Shown here piece after piece: positions 14,196-63,253 of a DNA stretch of 64,000 bases. Position 1 is the stretch's first letter. Each line of letters starts with the position of its first letter. Location: contig JABWCN010000008.1 of NCBI GenBank assembly GCA_013359135.1, positions 1-64,000 on the forward strand. Direction: 5' to 3'. Under the pieces are notes generated by a model, which was not told where the DNA came from, made no database searches, and was given only the letters and a program-made list of their open reading frames with translations. This stretch comes from Pseudobdellovibrionaceae bacterium (lineage in GTDB: Bacteria; Bdellovibrionota; Bdellovibrionia; Bdellovibrionales; Bdellovibrionaceae). The translations under genes were made by a program, and so were the position numbers.

Positions 14196-16442
14196 TTATT
14201 TTGCTGAACTTGGGGGCTGAACTTCAGAAGATCTATTTTCTTTCAGTCCATAAAGGTAAGATTTTCTATAAAAATCATAAACAGCACAGGCTTTTTCCGG
14301 GTAAGTTTTGCCCATAAGTTCATTAAAGTTCATCTTAATGCCTGATTTTTCATAAATGCTATTATAAGTTTTACCATTACAGTACTGTCTGATGTCCATA
14401 GTTTCGACTTCAGGAATTGCCAAGGACTGCATGCATAGAAGAGCTAAAGACTCTTGAGCATCTGGATCGTCTTTAGATTCTTGAAAAAGTTTTTGCATCC
14501 TAGCTTTTAAAGGCTCACGAAACACCCCAGCAAAAGCACTTAGATTGGATTTAGTTAACTCTTTAGCTGACCGAGATTGTGTTTTAGCGGCCTCGAGTCC
14601 AATGTAGTATTTAATTAGTTCGCTAAGGCTGTCATTGGATGAAAGGCGCATCAGAATTCCTAAATTTTGATCTAGTTCACCTTGTTTAATACGTTCATCA
14701 ATATCTTGATTAATAATTTCACCTAAAGCTTTTGGTAAAGCACTAGTATCATTATTAGGTATGAGTGCTCTGCTTATATCAGAGATTTTTTGTATTGAAT
14801 CATACTTGCTTTTTGTGATACTCGCTCCTGGAGTTTTTTCATTATGATCAGTTTCTGTATCTATGATTTCAAGTACTTTTGAAATTTGTTTTTGAGTTTT
14901 ATCAATTAATGATTTTTGTAGTGGCTTTTTGTAAATACTTTTTTGATCTTGAATGAGATTGTTTAGATACGATAACGCTGATTTAAGAAACTCACGTGCT
15001 GACCTTCTGTTTTTAAACTTGGTATCTATACTCGATAGAACTAAGTCAGGATTGGATTCACTCACATCGGAGATATTTTCATTCACATTGCTTCTCGCCT
15101 CGCTCAAAATATCACTGACCCTTCGTACTCCATCAGCTTGCAAATCAGGTAAGTTAGGGTATTTCTTTGCTACATAAGATACGCAAGACGTAGATCCATT
15201 GTCGTCTTTATCTCGGGTGCGATCTTTGCCATTAGAATAAAGGTAAATATAGGGTCCACAAGTTGGATCAGCGCTAAAAAAAGTCATGAAAGGTCCAGAA
15301 TAACTTGTGCTATTACTTGCTTGATCATAGATGACTTTTGGTTGCATTTTAGCTGCAATATCATTGAGAGATTTTCTGACAAAATTTTCTTTCTGAGTGG
15401 AATTAGCAAAAAGTCTTATAGCTGTATTTAAGATTCCTTCGATATCAATTTGTGCCATCCGAAGATCGTTTTGTAATCCAAAAGCAGTTTTTTTATCTAG
15501 TGCTCTACCTAGAGTTCCTGCCGGTGTTCCTGAGTCTATTTTTGAAGCCCAATTCAAGTAAGAGTCGACATCTTGCCCAAGCGACCCAATTCCATCCATC
15601 CAAGTTGGAAAACTTTCATTTTTTTCAGAATTGTTTTTATGAAAAGCTAAAATGACATCTACGTCTCTGGCTTGGCAGTAAGTATATGCTAACCCTTCAA
15701 AAGAGCATCCAACAGCTTCGCCAATGCGACTATTTGTAATGATTTTAAGTTTGTCGCCTATATTTTTATCTTGATAGAAGGATACAAAATTATCGATTAA
15801 GTTTCCTGTTGCAAGCATTAAAGACCCAACCATTCCAGATGCAAGTGTAGCCCCTAAGCCCAAAATTTGGGCCCCTACTTGAGCTGCTAGATTGGGCTTT
15901 TTCGTTAAGCATTGATTGCTCTCTTTTAATTTTGAAAACAGAAGATTAGTGTATTGATGAAAATTATCTATAGTTTCAAGACGTCTTCGTGTGTATTCTT
16001 GATTTGATAATTTTTTTGATTTTAAAATTCCAACCTTTGTTGATATAAGTTCTGATTTTAGTGCCTGAATATAGTCATCATCTTTATTTGAGGAAATACT
16101 TGCATTTCTCAAGGCAAGTTCTAGTTCATTAGCACGCATTGACATAAACTCTAAGTCATCTTTTGCATAGGGTTCTTTAAGTAAATTAGGAATGTTCAAT
16201 TTTTCAACATCATTAAGTGCACCAATAATACCTTTACAAGTACTATCGTCACGAATATCTTCAATAATTTGCTTAAGTCCTGAGCCATCGTTAAAAGCGG
16301 TATTATTGATAGGACCTTTTCCTTTGCATCTACTGCCAAAAGCATAGAACAAATCATTTGTAGGATCATAAGCTTCTGCATTGACAGTAATAGGTAGATT
16401 TAGGCTAAAAAAAATCAAAAAAAAGCTTACAACTTGAATCAT
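14196..16442 (-). CDS. Large exported protein, unknown
   Basis: A 748-residue protein with a signal peptide (hydrophobic VVSFFLIFFSLNLPITVNA, cleavage near residue 22). The mature part is mostly predicted helical. It has scattered cysteines, often in pairs that could form disulphides (SRCKGKG, DSTCKG, VGCSFEGLAYTYC, PTCGPY, ALLCMQ, RQYCNG). A glycine/alanine hydrophobic segment near residues 190-220 may be a membrane or membrane-lytic helix. No catalytic motif was recognised. Its ATG overlaps the preceding stop by four bases (ATGA), so it is coupled to the 175-residue gene upstream. It is probably periplasmic or outer-membrane associated; function is unknown. Confidence 0.8.
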   Translation of the reverse strand: MIQVVSFFLIFFSLNLPITVNAEAYDPTNDLFYAFGSRCKGKGPINNTAFNDGSGLKQIIEDIRDDSTCKGIIGALNDVEKLNIPNLLKEPYAKDDLEFMSMRANELELALRNASISSNKDDDYIQALKSELISTKVGILKSKKLSNQEYTRRRLETIDNFHQYTNLLFSKLKESNQCLTKKPNLAAQVGAQILGLGATLASGMVGSLMLATGNLIDNFVSFYQDKNIGDKLKIITNSRIGEAVGCSFEGLAYTYCQARDVDVILAFHKNNSEKNESFPTWMDGIGSLGQDVDSYLNWASKIDSGTPAGTLGRALDKKTAFGLQNDLRMAQIDIEGILNTAIRLFANSTQKENFVRKSLNDIAAKMQPKVIYDQASNSTSYSGPFMTFFSADPTCGPYIYLYSNGKDRTRDKDDNGSTSCVSYVAKKYPNLPDLQADGVRRVSDILSEARSNVNENISDVSESNPDLVLSSIDTKFKNRRSAREFLKSALSYLNNLIQDQKSIYKKPLQKSLIDKTQKQISKVLEIIDTETDHNEKTPGASITKSKYDSIQKISDISRALIPNNDTSALPKALGEIINQDIDERIKQGELDQNLGILMRLSSNDSLSELIKYYIGLEAAKTQSRSAKELTKSNLSAFAGVFREPLKARMQKLFQESKDDPDAQESLALLCMQSLAIPEVETMDIRQYCNGKTYNSIYEKSGIKMNFNELMGKTYPEKACAVYDFYRKSYLYGLKENRSSEVQPPSSAK

Positions 16443-42418: not shown

Positions 42419-43096
42419 CTATCTTTGAATCCTAATTTTATTTCTTGGAGAAACCAAACCTCTTTCCACATTATCAGCTGAATCTTTACTGTAAGAATTA
42501 ATTTGATCTTTAGAAGGTTGTGGGCTTTCACTTGAAAGATCAGTTTGGTTGTAGTTCTCATTAAAATTTTTGTTAGCAATGAACTCAAAAGAATCTTCAG
42601 GTCTAGATGATAATAATCCAACATTAGAAAAAGTTGTATTTCCAATTCTGGTGTGAGCTGACAATGAGATAAGCTTTTTTTCTTCTTTAGAAAAGCCACT
42701 CACTTTAATCTTCACTTCTTGAGGAGTTTCTGTAGGAACATTATTTAAAACTTGTTGCTGAGCTCCTTCAATGAGGAATACTCCCTCTGGAAGAACCCAT
42801 TCATAATTTACTATGTTATCACTGCTTTTAAGAAGTGTAATGTAGCCTTTTATCTCAGTTATATCTGCGTTTAAATCTGCTAATTCTGAGAATTCAAGTT
42901 GTACACTGACAAAAGAAAGTTGTTTGCCAAGTTTAGATTTAAAAAGAATCTTTGAAATTTTTTGTCGTTCATTTAAAGAAAAACTATCAGAGTTCGCTTC
43001 TAGAAAGTATTTTTCGTAGATCAATGAAGAGCCAAAACTAAAAGTTAAAAAGATAAAAACTACAAAGATTTTTTTTAAAGTTAATTTGCTGGGCAT
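42419..43096 (-). CDS. Exported protein of 225 residues, unknown
   Basis: An N-terminal signal or anchor (LKKIFVVFIFLTFSFGSSL) is followed by a beta-rich domain. The domain has LSFVSVQLEFSELADLNADITEIKGYITLL and a KVSGFSKEEKKLISLSAHTRIGNTTFSN segment. The C-terminal 50 residues are low-complexity (Ser, Asn, Gln, Asp). There are no cysteines. The start lies 16 bases inside the end of the metalloprotease-like gene upstream, so the two are co-translated. It may be a partner or chaperone of that lipoprotein; no family recognised. Confidence 0.75.
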   Translation of the reverse strand: MPSKLTLKKIFVVFIFLTFSFGSSLIYEKYFLEANSDSFSLNERQKISKILFKSKLGKQLSFVSVQLEFSELADLNADITEIKGYITLLKSSDNIVNYEWVLPEGVFLIEGAQQQVLNNVPTETPQEVKIKVSGFSKEEKKLISLSAHTRIGNTTFSNVGLLSSRPEDSFEFIANKNFNENYNQTDLSSESPQPSKDQINSYSKDSADNVERGLVSPRNKIRIQR

Positions 43097-44967
43097 AGAT
43101 CCCTCTGTGAGGAGTTAATTGTTTTAGTTAGCCTGTACCTTGCTTCGACGCCAACACCGCTTGAGGTTTTTCCGTAAGTATTTGCTTTAACAACTAACAT
43201 ATAAGTGCCAGGAGTTAGTTGGCTAAGTGTTAGACTTTCAGAACCATTTTCAATTGAGCCATAAGCGCGATTGCTAGTTTTGACAATGCTATCTGACTGT
43301 TCACCATACTCTTTGGCTTCATACTCTTCAAAATAAGTATAATCTTCCCTGTAAAGATAAAGATCTAAGTCAACTGGTTGGTTAGCATCGCTTTGAGCAT
43401 AAGAAAGATTTATGATGGCATTGGCAGCTATATCATCGTTTGTAATCGTAATTTTATAAAAATCATTAGATTTGAATTGATTTGATTTTTTATAAAAAGG
43501 ACAGGATGTTCCCGCGCATAAAGTGAGATCTGCTACAGGACTAATATAGGTATTTGAACACGTATTAATGGTTTGTTCATTAAGAGGGTTAGCATAATTT
43601 TTAAAAACTTTACTTTGTTTCTCTTGAGAAAGGATGTTCAGCCAATAAGAATTGTTCGAGGAATAGGTAGAAGAAATTATTGAATCTAGCCCCTTGTTCA
43701 TTAGAATACTTGACCGAAAAGCTTGCGAAGGAGAATGAAATCCATAAAAAGGATTACTAAAAACATTCCAAATCTCTTTGAATGGAATCCCCGCACCAAT
43801 AGGATATGTTAATGAAGTTGGTGATATCACTTTATATAAAGTTCGTGTAATTGATATTTCTCTAAAATTACCTTCACCGCTGGGTGTATTCGTTGGCATA
43901 TTATCTAAATTCGTTGAATTTGCATCATCATCGATAGTGATATACACGTTTTGTGAACAGGTTCCTTTGGTTTCTGTTGTGTCATTGCAGTACCCGGAAG
44001 TATCTAAGTAATAATTCTTACCTAGTATTGCAGCTTGGACAAAATTTGCAAAGCCTTCACTCCATGCTAGTCTAGGGTCAATAACAGCATCGCCATTATG
44101 ATAGCCTCCTGGGGAATCTGTTTTTCCATAGACATCTTCTAGGAAGTGTCCATATTCATGAAGTATAACAGATTTGTCAAAATGGTCTGTATCAGACTTT
44201 GCGACATCACCATTGTAGCCGCCTAAGATAAAAAGCTTATGCTCTCCTGGTTTGTAAAAAGATATAAGGCTGTCTGGATAGCCATAATAAGAATAGGGGT
44301 TGAAACCAGCTTTCCAGTAGACAGAAACTTTATCGCTAACCCAAGAGTTATCGGATAATTGAGTTTTTAAGTATTCATTTGCATAGTAAATGGTTTTTAG
44401 AATATGGAAAGCGGCTCCCTCCATTTTGGAGCTTTCGCTTTGTCTTGCCATAGCTTGGATCTCACCAGCATTGACATTAACCGAAGCTATATTGAAACTT
44501 TTTTCTATGAAATAAGGTTTATTGCTGGTGGGATCTTCAAGGATACTAGTTTTTATACGCGCATTATAAGCGCGCGAATAGATTCTAAGTGTTAACGTTC
44601 CAGAGTCCTTAGGAATATCAATACTAAAACTACCATCGAGGTTAGTTGTACCGCATTGAATTATATTAGAATTTGAGTCTAACAAATTGATCTCAGCATA
44701 AGAAATGGCATCGGAAACAGGATTACCTGAAAGTACTTTAATATAGCCATGAGAAGTATAGACAGAGTTTACTGGGCGATAAAAGTAAACAGCTGAACCA
44801 GTTAATGTTACATGGTTAGGAAAACTTTTACTTTCATGGCAAACAGAAGATTCTGGAATTTCAGTAGTTGCATTGCTAGAGCTAGAACCGCCATTCTTTT
44901 GGCAATTCACGATAACGAAAAGCAACGAAAGCAGAGATAATGCTTTGAAAGTAGATTTAATCAACAT
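43081..44967 (-). CDS. Zinc-metalloprotease-like lipoprotein with a PPC-like domain
   Basis: A predicted surface or periplasmic lipoprotein. The start at 44967 (MLIKSTFKAL) puts the lipobox VIVNC at Cys22; an upstream start at 45048 would hide it. The order is a carboxypeptidase-regulatory-like beta domain (about 50-140), then a catalytic region with HEYGH (His270-His274) and a possible third ligand Glu304 in AWSEGFANF. The last 130 residues look like a bacterial pre-peptidase C-terminal (PPC) domain (VDLDLYLYRED, LTPGTYMLVVKA). The zinc-binding set suggests an active gluzincin-like protease. Substrate unknown. Confidence 0.8.
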   Translation of the reverse strand: MLIKSTFKALSLLSLLFVIVNCQKNGGSSSSNATTEIPESSVCHESKSFPNHVTLTGSAVYFYRPVNSVYTSHGYIKVLSGNPVSDAISYAEINLLDSNSNIIQCGTTNLDGSFSIDIPKDSGTLTLRIYSRAYNARIKTSILEDPTSNKPYFIEKSFNIASVNVNAGEIQAMARQSESSKMEGAAFHILKTIYYANEYLKTQLSDNSWVSDKVSVYWKAGFNPYSYYGYPDSLISFYKPGEHKLFILGGYNGDVAKSDTDHFDKSVILHEYGHFLEDVYGKTDSPGGYHNGDAVIDPRLAWSEGFANFVQAAILGKNYYLDTSGYCNDTTETKGTCSQNVYITIDDDANSTNLDNMPTNTPSGEGNFREISITRTLYKVISPTSLTYPIGAGIPFKEIWNVFSNPFYGFHSPSQAFRSSILMNKGLDSIISSTYSSNNSYWLNILSQEKQSKVFKNYANPLNEQTINTCSNTYISPVADLTLCAGTSCPFYKKSNQFKSNDFYKITITNDDIAANAIINLSYAQSDANQPVDLDLYLYREDYTYFEEYEAKEYGEQSDSIVKTSNRAYGSIENGSESLTLSQLTPGTYMLVVKANTYGKTSSGVGVEARYRLTKTINSSQRDLCPAN

Positions 44968-45100
44968 GAATCTCTTTCGGCAAATTTTTCTGGTGACCTG
45001 AGCAATTAGTTGATTGAAACTATGGATTAAAATGAGATTTTTTAACAAAATTAAAGTTGAATAAAGTGTGTATCTATTTTAAACGAGTTAGCAGTAAAAT

Positions 45101-58282: not shown

Positions 58283-58313
58283 AAAGACTTCCATAGAGTG
58301 GATTCTTTTAATT
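58278..58313 (+). terminator. Probable terminator after the ABC exporter
   Basis: ATTAAAAAGA pairs with TCTTTTAAT around an inner TCCA/TGGA stem and a TAGAG loop. The stem is AT-rich and slightly bulged, ending in T-rich sequence. Confidence 0.5.
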
Positions 58314-58591
58314 TATAGTTTGATATTTTAGTGATTAAATTGTCGAAGCGCTTTGTTGGTCAAAGTCCATGTGTAATTAGAACCGTACAGAATCGCTGTG
58401 TAGTTACATAGGTGTCTTTATTTTAAACAGCTGTAAACTCGTTTGCGTAATTTAATTTTTTTATTTTATTGATATTTAGCAACTCTAAACATTGCCGTTT
58501 GAGGTGATTTTTTAGAATGAAAATATGTAATTTAAATGGCATCCTTTCTGCATTTCGTAATTTTGTATATTAAATTTAAATAGGAGAAATT
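58314..58591 (+). other. AT-rich intergenic leader of the exported-protein operon
   Basis: About 280 bases without a gene. It contains a small CTTTG/CAAAG inverted repeat near 58350 and, close to the gene, AGGAGA six bases before the ATG at 58592. No promoter could be assigned with confidence. Nothing else recognised. Confidence 0.4.
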
Positions 58592-60187
58592 ATGAAATCT
58601 AGAATTTTCAAGGGTAATCTTTCAGGTGTATTGGCGTTATCATTTTTAATGCAGTTGTCTCAACCTCTGTTAGCGGCTCCGGTCGGAACAAATACAAAAG
58701 TTAGTGTGAGTCAAATGGGATATCCTGGAGTTATTAGTCAAGGGCCTGGAGTTTATAGTTATCAGCATACAGATGAAACAAGATTAAATGAAATGTATTT
58801 AAATGTACTCAAAGAATTTTCGTTAAAAGATAGAGACTACATGCTTTCAACTGTAAAAAGCTTAGATGCTTTAATGGAAGCTTTTGTTGTCGATAATGTT
58901 AAGGAAGGATTAACCGCTTTATCTGACAACAGTCAAATTCCAGGAAAAGCTGTAGATTTAGCTGAATTTGTCGGAAAAAGAAGAGAATTTTATGCCGCTT
59001 TGGAAATCATTAAATTGAAAATAAGAAGTTTAACTGCTCTTCCAGAAGTTGGTTCAGTTAATCAAAGAAATATAGAAGTAAAGGGAACTCAAGTTTTGGT
59101 TGATGGAAAAATAAAGGCTGATTTTTCTCCTTTAATTAAGTCCTACAATGAAGTGATCAGTAAAGTGGAATCTGGAATGGAGTCCAAAAAATTTAATATT
59201 AAAGATCCAAATGGTGGTGGCGTAGTTATTTCTCAACAAGGTATTGCCACATTGAATGAAAAACTAACTAATCCTTACACTTTAGAAGCTATAAGTAAAA
59301 TGAGACAAGAAGCTCTGGGATTAAGAATGGTTGGCTTTCAGGAAAAGAAGGCGATTAATGATTCAGTAAATGCTTATACAGTCAGAAAAATAAGAATGGC
59401 TATTGAAACATTTGGGAAATCTGAGAAATACAGATTACAAGCTCAGGACAACACTGTTCTTCAAAAAGAAGTACTAAAAACGGTTGAGGACATTATGTTT
59501 ACCAGAAGTTTAATGAGGCTGTTATATGGGGTTAAGCTAGGAACTCCAGCCGTAGTCACTTATAACAAACAAGCTTTCAATTGGGATTTTTTCTCTTCTA
59601 ATAATGAAGTTCAATTTTATAAAGACAGTGTTATCGATGGAAATCAGCAAACAGCTATGTTGAATAAAATCAATGAAGCCATAAGAACTCAAGAAGCAAG
59701 GACAAAGAATGTGTTTTCGCTTGATTCTAATATTTTAGCGAAAGTGACTTCTGCAATAACCTTTCTAAAAGGAGAAAGAGCTTTGGCTGTTATGAATACC
59801 ATCATGTTAAAAGTATTAGCAGCTGATATTGCTGAAGATATTGCACTAGATAACGTTGGAGGCTTAAGGAAATTGAAAGACATGTTTAAAGGGCGTTATT
59901 ACACTAGCGATGAAAATAGAAAGTATTATAAGCAGAAAAAAGATGAAGTGGTCGCAATGCTTGAACCTAGTATGTCTAACAATACAAGCGATGATGGTTT
60001 TGGGGATGTGAATGTTGCATCAAATGCAGGAGTTGCTGCTTTTACTTTTCCAAGTTCCATCCTAAAAAATATTAGGGCTCGCGTTGATAGAGCCAATCAA
60101 CTTGATGCTGTTATTGCTCAATATGATTCTAACTCTAAAGCGACACAAGATACCCAAAAAAGAGTTAATGCTTTAGATAATTTATAA
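58592..60187 (+). CDS. Exported helical protein, first gene of a three-gene operon
   Basis: A 531-residue protein with a signal peptide (LSGVLALSFLMQLSQPLLAA, cleavage near residue 29). The mature protein is cysteine-free and mostly predicted helical. Charged amphipathic stretches include IKDPNGGGVVISQQGIATLNEKL and RTKNVFSLDSNILAKVTSAI. The C-terminal region holds a low-complexity SNNTSDDGFGD linker and ends in a helical RVDRANQLDAVIAQYDSNSKATQDTQKRVNAL segment. There is a good AGGAGA ribosome site. No family recognised. Periplasmic or outer-membrane location is likely; it is probably co-transcribed with the two genes that follow. Confidence 0.82.
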   Translation: MKSRIFKGNLSGVLALSFLMQLSQPLLAAPVGTNTKVSVSQMGYPGVISQGPGVYSYQHTDETRLNEMYLNVLKEFSLKDRDYMLSTVKSLDALMEAFVVDNVKEGLTALSDNSQIPGKAVDLAEFVGKRREFYAALEIIKLKIRSLTALPEVGSVNQRNIEVKGTQVLVDGKIKADFSPLIKSYNEVISKVESGMESKKFNIKDPNGGGVVISQQGIATLNEKLTNPYTLEAISKMRQEALGLRMVGFQEKKAINDSVNAYTVRKIRMAIETFGKSEKYRLQAQDNTVLQKEVLKTVEDIMFTRSLMRLLYGVKLGTPAVVTYNKQAFNWDFFSSNNEVQFYKDSVIDGNQQTAMLNKINEAIRTQEARTKNVFSLDSNILAKVTSAITFLKGERALAVMNTIMLKVLAADIAEDIALDNVGGLRKLKDMFKGRYYTSDENRKYYKQKKDEVVAMLEPSMSNNTSDDGFGDVNVASNAGVAAFTFPSSILKNIRARVDRANQLDAVIAQYDSNSKATQDTQKRVNALDNL

Positions 60188-60216
60188 TCTTTCTAAAATC
60201 TTTCAGTGGAGTGTTT

Positions 60217-61875
60217 ATGGACTATAAATTTAAATCGTTTCGGATTTTAGGGTTTTTAGTAACAGTTATGATGACTAGCATCTCCACTGCAAATTTTAGT
60301 GGAAATCGTTGTAGTACACACAGAACAGGACCAGCGCCAAGTGTTTGTGAGGGAAGAACTATTCCAGCATCAAAAGCTAGGAATTTGAGAGTTAATACAC
60401 AAATGCTAAATTGCTCTGCAAATGTTGATCACTACATACGAAGGCCGCAAAAATTTGATTTTAATACTTGGGCTACGCTAGTACAAAATGGAAAAAAGCA
60501 GGAAGCCTACAATTTAAGGCGTGAACAGCAGAAAGAGATAGCTTGGAGTGGAAGTGTTCCTTTTGTCACAGTTGAAACATGGGTTTGGGAAAGTTGTGAT
60601 TTAATAACAAGTTCTTCTGAGTGTGGGACAACAACAAAGACTCGTATTTATGATTGCAGTTATACAACGTCTCGATCCTGCGATTCTAAAGGTCGTTGCA
60701 CTGGTGGAAATAGAGTTTCAAAAACTTGTACTGAATCATACCAAGACCCTAATACTTGTTATGCTGATGTATCTCATAGAGAAAATTGGGAATGTAGTAA
60801 TGAGATTATGACTTACTCGGCTAAGTTTGATAGACCAAAAGATTGGACACCACAAACTCCAGGATACAAAGATCCAATTCCTAATAAGTATGATCTACTT
60901 CCGGGTGAAGTTGAGGATATTCAAGTTTTAAATAACCAAAGCATGGCCTCTTCGGTGAGCCCTTTTACTAAGGTTGGGGATGCATGGAATGAGTATAAAA
61001 TATCTAATACAATTAATGGATCTACTAAGGCAAGTTGTATTCAAAATGGTAAGTACCATGCTAATATAACTATTTATACAGATAAACGAATTCCAAGTAA
61101 AAAGACGCCAAATGCGTTTAGACTACCTCACGATTCTAAAGGTAATAAAATCTTAGCTTTATCTTCTGATACTGTTAAATTAGAAGATGGAAAAGATTTT
61201 GAAATTCAATCAGAATCAAAAAATTCATTTATAGCTGGGCATCCCTCAGCTGTATATTTAGATGATACATCTTCTTCTATGATTACATTAATTGCAGAGC
61301 AATCACGAAAAAATGAAGAAAGAGAAGTGCAGAAAGAAAAACTTAGTCTTGGTAAAAACAATGATTCAGCTGAGGCTTTAAAAAAAGATCCAGCTTTTTT
61401 TAAGAATACAAAAGTTAAAATTGAGTTGCTGGCAGATAATAAGTATTGGTGGAAAACAAGTTCAACCGATCCCATTGTTGTAGATGATATTGATGCTGTG
61501 GAAATGGATTTTAGATCATTCTCAACAAATCAAGACATTGCTAGTTCTGATCTTTGGAAAATTATTTTAAATAGCAAAGTGAAAAAGAATAATAATATTT
61601 ACATGGTTAGTGACAGTAGTGAAAGAACTCTGCGACCAGATCAAAAATATTTATTAAAAATTTCTATGTATCAAAAAGGTGTCAAAGGTTTTTACAAGCA
61701 AGACTGCGAAGAGGATTCAGAGGCTTGGGATTGTAAATGGTGGTCTTTATTTATGAAAAGAAATGAAAAAGATTACTATTCTGATCCAATAGAAATTTAC
61801 TTTAAAACTCCAGAAAAAATGCAAGATGAACGAGGATTTGGTCGTAAAGTTTTAGATATATTAGATTTATTCTAA
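60217..61875 (+). CDS. Cysteine-rich exported protein, second gene of the operon
   Basis: A 552-residue protein with a signal peptide (FRILGFLVTVMMTSISTA) and a cysteine-rich N-terminal half. Cysteines occur at short intervals in RCSTHRTG, SVCEGR, ESCDLITSSSECGTTTK, YDCSYTTSRSCDSKGRCTGGN, KTCTESY, NTCYAD and WECSNE; two more pairs lie in ASCIQNG and DCEEDSEAWDCKWW. This resembles a disulphide-stabilised, possibly adhesive or surface fold. The start is ATG 60217, with GGAG six bases upstream; an in-frame GTG at 60211 is less likely. No known domain was recognised. It starts 29 bases after the first gene. Confidence 0.82.
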   Translation: MDYKFKSFRILGFLVTVMMTSISTANFSGNRCSTHRTGPAPSVCEGRTIPASKARNLRVNTQMLNCSANVDHYIRRPQKFDFNTWATLVQNGKKQEAYNLRREQQKEIAWSGSVPFVTVETWVWESCDLITSSSECGTTTKTRIYDCSYTTSRSCDSKGRCTGGNRVSKTCTESYQDPNTCYADVSHRENWECSNEIMTYSAKFDRPKDWTPQTPGYKDPIPNKYDLLPGEVEDIQVLNNQSMASSVSPFTKVGDAWNEYKISNTINGSTKASCIQNGKYHANITIYTDKRIPSKKTPNAFRLPHDSKGNKILALSSDTVKLEDGKDFEIQSESKNSFIAGHPSAVYLDDTSSSMITLIAEQSRKNEEREVQKEKLSLGKNNDSAEALKKDPAFFKNTKVKIELLADNKYWWKTSSTDPIVVDDIDAVEMDFRSFSTNQDIASSDLWKIILNSKVKKNNNIYMVSDSSERTLRPDQKYLLKISMYQKGVKGFYKQDCEEDSEAWDCKWWSLFMKRNEKDYYSDPIEIYFKTPEKMQDERGFGRKVLDILDLF

Positions 61876-61885
61876 GAGGTTAGGT

Positions 61886-63232
61886 ATGAAAAAAATAATT
61901 TGTGTGACGCTTATTGGAATTCAGTTTGCTAATGCTATGAATTTAGCTGTATTAAGAAAAAATAGTGAACTTTATTCTGTTGAAAAAGCAACTGCATCTT
62001 CTGAAGAAGTCAAACTACAGATACAAAGCCTTCGAAAAAAATTATTTTCAAGCAGTGGTAATTATTCTTCTTTGCAAGATTTAGCTAAAATTAAAACAGA
62101 TGTGAAGTCTGATAATGCAATGAATTTACTTAGTTTTTCTTCTTTGATTAAGGGGGAGCTAAAGTTAACCGCAGACAGAATTTCATCTATGGAAAAATAT
62201 CAGGCTCCGGTTTTGATTACGAGTACTGCTTCAGTGGAAAAGCTAAGAATAGATAAAAGAAATTATGAATCAGAAGTCTGCAATGTAGATATGAATCGAA
62301 CAGCAGAGGGGCTTTCTATTAAGCTTTTGACTATGGCAATTGATAGTAAAAATAAAGCTAATGAAATCAATTCTCAATCAATGGATTTAGGAAATAAACT
62401 ATTAGAAGTTATAAGGAAGGCGCCGACATTTCAAGGTAAAGATTTAACACATCTTTTTGGAGATTTAAAAAAAGTTGAGATTTTTGATGGCATAATCAGA
62501 GAGTTGCATTTTAGCCGTGCTGATTTGACCGTAGAAATATCTCTACCCATGTTAATAACACTAAGAACTGGAATGGATAACTATTATCTGAAAGCGCTAA
62601 ATTGTTTATTAGACTACTTTAAGGAACAAGAGTTTTTATTTCAAAAAAAGTTAGATTTTATGGGAAATTCACCAAACAGTGTTGTTAATTTTATGCTTGA
62701 ATATGATAAAATAGCTAAAGCCTCACAGGGGCAGTCTATTAATAAGGAGGATCTAAAAGAAAAATTAAATTCTTTGGACATTCCTGAGCTTACTTATAAT
62801 AAAAGAATTAAGAAATTCTATGAAGGTAAGAAATTTTCTAGTTTGTCTGAAGAGAAGAGTTTTTTAAGTTTACGTTTAGATCGTATAAGAGGTTTTATTG
62901 GATATCTTGAAAGTAAAGTTAAAAACTCAGAGAAAGTTCACCAAAGAATTTCAAAAATGACAAAAGAGCAGCAAAATTATTTGATTGATCTTTTTATTCA
63001 ACTGCAAGGTGAAAATATTATGAGTAGTATCGATAAAGAGGTTATCATTAATGAACTTAAATCTAATAAAACAACAATTGATAAAAATTCACTAAATGTA
63101 ACTTTTGCCTACCAAACGCTAATTAGTGATCAAATTGCTAGCTTGTCTCAGTTTTTAGATAATGAAAAAAACCAAGAGAGTTTGACTCTGAAAGATAGGA
63201 ATATCTTGATGCAGATTAAAGCGAACAATTGA
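61886..63232 (+). CDS. Exported helical protein, third gene of the operon
   Basis: A 448-residue protein with a signal peptide (MKKIICVTLIGIQFANA). The mature part is helical and lysine/glutamate rich, with possible coiled-coil stretches such as VKLQIQSLRKKLF and FKEQEFLFQKKLDFMG. It has only two cysteines in the mature part (SEVCNVDMN and LNCLLDYF). No domain recognised. It starts 10 bases after the second gene, behind AGAGGTTAGG. With the two preceding genes it forms a compact operon whose products are all exported and all unrelated to each other. Confidence 0.82.
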   Translation: MKKIICVTLIGIQFANAMNLAVLRKNSELYSVEKATASSEEVKLQIQSLRKKLFSSSGNYSSLQDLAKIKTDVKSDNAMNLLSFSSLIKGELKLTADRISSMEKYQAPVLITSTASVEKLRIDKRNYESEVCNVDMNRTAEGLSIKLLTMAIDSKNKANEINSQSMDLGNKLLEVIRKAPTFQGKDLTHLFGDLKKVEIFDGIIRELHFSRADLTVEISLPMLITLRTGMDNYYLKALNCLLDYFKEQEFLFQKKLDFMGNSPNSVVNFMLEYDKIAKASQGQSINKEDLKEKLNSLDIPELTYNKRIKKFYEGKKFSSLSEEKSFLSLRLDRIRGFIGYLESKVKNSEKVHQRISKMTKEQQNYLIDLFIQLQGENIMSSIDKEVIINELKSNKTTIDKNSLNVTFAYQTLISDQIASLSQFLDNEKNQESLTLKDRNILMQIKANN

Positions 63233-63236
63233 TAAA

Positions 63237-63253
63237 GTTCATTTTAAATGAAC
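63237..63253. terminator. Small palindrome between convergent genes
   Basis: GTTCATTT (63237-63244) and AAATGAAC (63246-63253) are exact inverted copies around a single T. The minus-strand phosphatase stop codon lies inside. It could be a weak bidirectional terminator; it lacks a clear T run. Confidence 0.3.

Follow-up and report, generated by a model that had tools for sequence, protein, structure and literature searches.

Genes A, B and C, which fill positions 58592 to 63232 of the window (the whole 64-kb stretch of DNA that was analysed), very probably represent one co-inherited exported unit, and we put the chance that they form a horizontally exchanged cassette encoding an exported multi-protein envelope complex at about one in two. 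Gene order and strand are kept in very diverged versions and the parts evolve together, in line with the multi-component exported unit that the original prediction had proposed. A physical complex of the three proteins in the envelope or at the cell surface, for which we infer mutual contact, is rather probable; that it faces other cells is a tentative proposal.

In the open reading frame list of the 64-kb window all three genes are complete and lie on the + strand: A (58592..60187, +; 531 aa), B (60217..61875, +; 552 aa) and C (61886..63232, +; 448 aa), each opening with ATG and encoding an exported-looking protein. The compact run described earlier, with 29 bases between A and B and 10 between B and C, is confirmed at these places. 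The start of A is immediately preceded by a ribosome-binding-like AGGAG and the ATG of B at 60217, which yields the 552-aa protein and the 29-base A-B gap, by a ribosome-binding-like GTGGAG; a GTG at 60211 is an alternative B start that would give 554 aa. Signal-peptide-like stretches occupy 58592-58678 (+) in A, 60217-60291 (+) in B and 61886-61936 (+) in C. Judged by eye, all three N-termini read as Sec signal peptides without a lipobox, as had been claimed for each protein. Among the homologues, a home-made pattern detected such starts in 22 of 23 A, 20 of 23 B and 14 of 16 C proteins, as well as in all seven C2 and all six D proteins (for these two, see below); the single A failing the pattern is the window's own, which was accepted by eye. 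The 309 bases upstream of A (58283..58591, +) are presumed to hold the operon promoter; a promoter scan of the region returned 19 sites versus 20.3 in shuffles, i.e. nothing beyond chance, and no promoter was assigned. C and a HAD-like gene are convergent, and a perfect 7-bp hairpin between their ends (63237..63253), possibly a shared terminator, is at -4.7 kcal/mol (z -0.71) no better than shuffles. Scanning the locus for terminators, repeats and Rfam families gave nothing above chance. As judged from sequence comparison, A, B and C are genuine genes rather than chance reading frames, because many genomes carry homologues of all three in that order.

The earlier description of a cysteine-rich middle protein between nearly cysteine-free neighbours holds (0, 14 and 3 cysteines in A, B and C, respectively), and so does that of mutually unrelated proteins, a profile comparison of A with C having revealed no sequence relationship (E 0.54). 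The helical nature claimed for the neighbours was found for A, whose AlphaFold2 model of moderate confidence (pLDDT 72.8, pTM 0.51) is mostly helical. The most conserved stretch of A in two alignments has the consensus RSYLRxxYGxxLGA and lies at 59498..59569 (+), the letters of the window being FTRSLMRLLYGVKLGTPAVVTYNK. The AlphaFold2 model of B, built on a 15-row alignment (pLDDT 80.5, pTM 0.71), is beta-rich and consists of long beta-hairpins, the signature of the family and then a further beta region. DSSP on the model delimits four long strands of 13-26 residues each (60541..60831, +; mature residues 84-180), a region into which 8 of the 14 cysteines of the window's B fall; invariant cysteines are present in the alignment of B homologues. 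The signature PNKYDLLPGE (60880..60909, +; mature residues 197-206) is almost invariant across the 15 aligned B sequences. In the second half, a region split by insertions (61099..61821, +) aligned weakly to Fn3/Ig-like sandwiches, with VIA-align Z values of 5.4-6.7 over 91-126 residues (model range about 270-510), below the level of Z 8 set for this tool. Foldseek and VIA-align comparisons of A and B with the PDB, and of B with BFVD by Foldseek, produced no outstanding match, so that the structure predictions for A and B offer no convincing match to a known fold.

The statement that the proteins carry no recognisable domain was likewise upheld, since Pfam, NCBIfam, PHROGs and the PDB gave no accepted match for the trio and no member could be placed in a well-known family. 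At E<=5, the A, B and C of the window hit 0, 1 and 0 Pfam families, the single one being PF25376, below its cut-off. PF25376 (NSUN2 pre-PUA) was rejected as an identity for B, being seen in only one of 15 B homologues. NCBIfam matches of the trio were far under the cut-offs, PHROGs yielded nothing better than E 0.03, a PDB sequence search with the single B protein found no match, and PDB searches with profiles of A, B and C found nothing credible; the best profile match, an engrailed construct for A (E 0.0093), was not judged a credible relative. No match of A, B or C to the PADLOC models of anti-phage defence was seen at E<=0.5; one D protein matches the PADLOC model 'chat' weakly (E 0.018). 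Overall, the Pfam, NCBIfam, PHROGs and PADLOC scans returned scattered single-member matches only, and the absence of a family from these and the fold lists excludes nothing. Peptidase S74 was absent from the Pfam matches of 15 B members. Profile comparison showed no relation of C to C2, and for C2 versus D it gave E 0.006 with a probability of only 6%. No plasmid, phage or viral-contig relatives of B were found, the viral scan being made with one short pattern. In the open-licence literature we found no paper on such a trio, and the words hypothetical, signal peptide and horizontal are absent from the main text of PMC11656739. By sequence, then, no known family was found to hold the trio; very remote kinship would still be possible.

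The original prediction had turned on whether the three genes stay together in Bdellovibrionota genomes. Profiles run on the open reading frames of the loci show that A and B are adjacent, co-directional and in the same order wherever they share a contig, and the arrangement A-B-(C or C2)-(D) is retained in order and strand at all of these loci. Intergenic distances range from -86 to +134 bases; many genes overlap, overlaps of 1 or 4 bases being common between B and C or C and D. By profile, B is followed by C in 16 loci; for L112 the same was read from the open reading frame. In seven loci, which form one branch, a different exported-looking protein, C2, replaces C, and in six loci a fourth gene, D, follows C; the window has neither. 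Among the 26 carriers, C2 and D are confined to the operon loci, barring two weak partial matches (G133 and G338). A hydrophobic pair near the C-terminus reaches the threshold in four of seven C2 and three of six D proteins, and weak hydrophobic segments occur in 12 of 22 A and 8 of 16 C proteins. As to the completeness of the loci, L118, L119, L010, L036 and L042 are cut by a contig end or broken before the set is complete, the operon is divided over two contigs in G009, G092 and G225, the A genes of G225 and G307 are broken across frames or contigs, and G359 has the end of B only; L053, L056, L059 and L060 duplicate L121, L039, L116 and L117 and were dropped from the counts. A very diverged third A-B-C branch comprises G217 (L112:6847-11000, +) and G151 (L120:8699-13007, -), which belong to different families and whose B proteins are 47% identical.

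When 61 genomes sampled from the family were searched with the single A sequence, 5 matched, and a five-row A profile found homologues in 18 of 290 genomes of the phylum. With a 15-row B profile, 25 of 368 phylum genomes were matched, or 26 once G151 is added, which was reached via the C profile and its B via a pair profile (A7). A 12-row C profile found homologues in 16 of the 368, the C of G217 being added by reading the frame. The carriers are spread over many families, and each has the trio in one copy. All five other genomes of the same genus (G005, G024, G030, G033 and G036) lack it, and g6, the genus with the best sampling in the family, has no carrier (19 g6 genomes in the A search; the B profile also found none). 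The trio is an accessory trait, because it is absent from the five congeners and from all g6 genomes. All 14 named records retrieved by a pattern scan of genome contigs are uncultured MAGs labelled Bdellovibrionales, Bdellovibrionaceae, Bdellovibrio sp., Bacteriovoracaceae, Bacteriovoracia or Oligoflexia, two being named only Proteobacteria or bacterium; this contig scan rests on one pattern, by which members outside the phylum with an altered signature would be missed.

The trees of A, B and C are concordant in their main outline. Tree distances correlate strongly in Mantel tests between A and B (0.77, 23 genomes), B and C (0.83, 17) and A and C (0.76, 17; each p 2e-4), versus 0.19, 0.08 and 0.18 for the three genes with ClpX. 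When the two most diverged genomes are removed, the values are 0.68, 0.75 and 0.55 for A-B, B-C and A-C versus 0.29, 0.16 and 0.24 with ClpX. The trees comprise 24 rows for B, 23 for A, 17 for C and 22 for ClpX, rows of 200 aa or less being omitted. In the A and B trees the C2 branch has a support of 100/100; besides, the trees show the pair G151 and G217 and a mixed branch that unites the window with members of other classes. ClpX groups the window with its own family, with a support of 85/84 that is below the starred level. Forcing the five carriers of the window's family into one clade is rejected both for B (lnL 260 worse, p-AU 9e-39) and for A (lnL 167 worse, p-AU 8e-40), a rejection that is strong but not absolute, because long branches contribute. 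The B protein of the window shares only 22% identity with the relatives from its own family, in L007 and L008, versus 30-41% with 11 homologues outside the C2 branch. For ClpX, the identity of the window's protein is 78-80% with genomes of its own family and 59-69% with those whose relationship is at phylum level only. Our reading of the history leans on A and B, because the C tree has long branches and the window's row in it is odd in composition. The genes of the trio move as a group and for the most part independently of the species, and they constitute a conserved accessory cassette that is probably transferred as a unit. Several ancient copies followed by heavy loss, rather than transfer, could also have left such a patchy pattern.

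The site of the cassette can be compared within the genus. Past the 309 bases upstream of A lie two ABC-transporter genes and downstream, convergent with C, the HAD-like gene (all named by eye); each of the five congeners has an orthologue of the HAD-like gene and one of the upstream ABC gene. Three of these have empty sites, with gaps of 76 (G024), 23 (G033) and 36 (G030) bases between the ABC and HAD genes and no trio. G005 carries at this position an 1188-aa gene (L141:4463-8029, -) that by eye has two Walker-A-like motifs (GTSGVGKS and GTTGTGKT), a HEAGH zinc-peptidase-like motif and a signal- or membrane-like start, and G036 an unrelated exported-looking 409-aa gene (L139:4315-5544, -). 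The ABC/HAD gap therefore looks like a variable spot in the genus, three congeners being empty there and two holding unrelated genes. A gain in the lineage of the window is the simplest reading of the site, and repeated loss is the alternative. The GC content of A (34.2%), B (33.8%) and C (30.0%) is like that of the window (33.7%), so that a transfer, if any, either is not of recent date or had a similar genome as its donor. At the locus we saw neither a mobility gene nor flanking repeats. Elsewhere in the window, an exported-looking gene (43081-45048, -) with a HEYGH zinc-peptidase-like motif (by eye) is followed by a small exported-looking gene, and an exported-looking 748-aa gene (14196-16442, -) adjoins an exported-looking gene of 175 aa.

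The trio may form an exported, disulphide-rich complex in the envelope or at the surface, perhaps one that faces other cells. We propose that Sec would export A, B and C, that B might serve as a disulphide-held, extended beta-rich scaffold or binder through its long hairpins and the Fn3/Ig-like region, and that A and C would be partners assembling on it. In other branches, C2 or D may tether the assembly to a membrane; the anchoring of the window's operon is not explained in this way, since it has neither gene. Still more cautiously, the complex might meet a variable outside partner (prey, competitor, phage or surface) instead of doing housekeeping work, because the genes diverge fast, are exchanged as a set, occur in one copy per genome and are dispensable within the genus. 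The meeting with other cells is the weakest step of our reading, and prey contact, which is one form of it, is a conjecture without support of its own. In its full form, a horizontally exchanged surface machine of the Bdellovibrionota, not described before, built from three to five families without known relatives, anchored by C2 or D and binding or acting against other cells, the proposal is speculative.

Among other explanations, a periplasmic complex for envelope maintenance or assembly, ordinary in role and exchanged without any antagonistic reason, would agree with the single copy, the fixed set of exported-looking proteins and the absence of dedicated export machinery near the operon. 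We regard it as unlikely, given that the trio is missing from most of the phylum and from all five congeners, and that housekeeping genes do not usually diverge so fast or pass between classes. More striking as a rival would be a pore-forming role, the plain periplasmic role being at least as likely. Here the operon would encode a secreted multi-component toxin with the helical A, C, C2 and D as ClyA-type or other pore formers and B as receptor-binding part or scaffold. Several exported-looking proteins in a single operon and the hydrophobic pairs of C2 and D would fit, as would alignments of the A model with ClyA (6mrt_A; Z 6.9, rmsd 5.8, 144 aligned) and AhlB (6grj_H; Z 6.3, 5.6 A, 148 aligned), yet these stand among many helical bundles (up to Z 8.6) and below the helical-bundle background of Z 13. 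The top Foldseek match of B in the PDB is the lysenin pore (5gaq_A; E 2e-3, prob 0.54), but with TM-scores of 0.09 and 0.13. Moreover, PF05791 (HBL-type) was absent at E<=0.5 from the Pfam matches listed for 17 A proteins (25 of 26 families shown), 12 C proteins and 9 C2, D or C proteins, the window's A has no segment above the hydrophobicity threshold, and B is beta-rich and cysteine-rich, as opposed to the helical Ahl components in the excerpted text of PMC6602965; a toxin appears quite improbable. That three unrelated exported genes are neighbours by chance, as the lack of a shared domain and of homology between A and C might suggest, is refuted for the gene order by its conservation across very diverged loci and by the concordant trees, and hardly deserves consideration.

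Bdellovibrio is a predatory bacterium, and its phylum is known for bacterial predators. Should the exported multi-protein complex that we favour prove to be a secreted or surface machine, close relatives in this phylum would differ by a trait that can be swapped, which would provide a direct handle on differences between lineages in the cells they meet. In any case, the locus yields new protein families, three to five in number, that bear clear signatures, and the carriers, the congeners with empty sites and the two variants of the third gene offer a natural test set.

Among known systems, the tripartite alpha-pore-forming toxins of Gram-negative bacteria (AhlABC, SmhABC and MakABE), in which several neighbouring genes encode helical proteins acting outside the cell, resemble the trio as we read it. 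A patchy distribution is a further likeness, the Mak toxin lying on a genomic island according to a published abstract. The trio differs by its beta-rich, cysteine-rich middle protein, by signal-peptide-like starts on all members, and by the lack of an HBL or ClyA Pfam match among the matches listed and of any significant fold match. Aerolysin/lysenin-type and binary-toxin beta-pore formers are raised in the Foldseek ranking by the long beta-hairpins of the B model, but E 2e-3 is the best value, the TM-scores are about 0.1, and the hairpins of B bear cysteines and charges. The C-terminal half of B recalls Fn3/Ig-like adhesin domains, e.g. the ester-bond domains of clostridial adhesins (Z <=6.7, rmsd 2.4, 92 residues; 9blo_A with Z 6.5, 3.3 A, 122 residues), although this fold is very common, Z stays below 8 and no sequence match was found. 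The mosaic adhesive trimer (MAT) fibres of Bdellovibrio bacteriovorus are, in the excerpted text of PMC10769870, a single family with 21 members in one genome, in which the signal peptide is followed by a conserved beta domain. Although B occurs in single copy, in an operon and in no g6 genome, it resembles the MATs, which have a binding role, in being an exported beta-rich protein of the same phylum.
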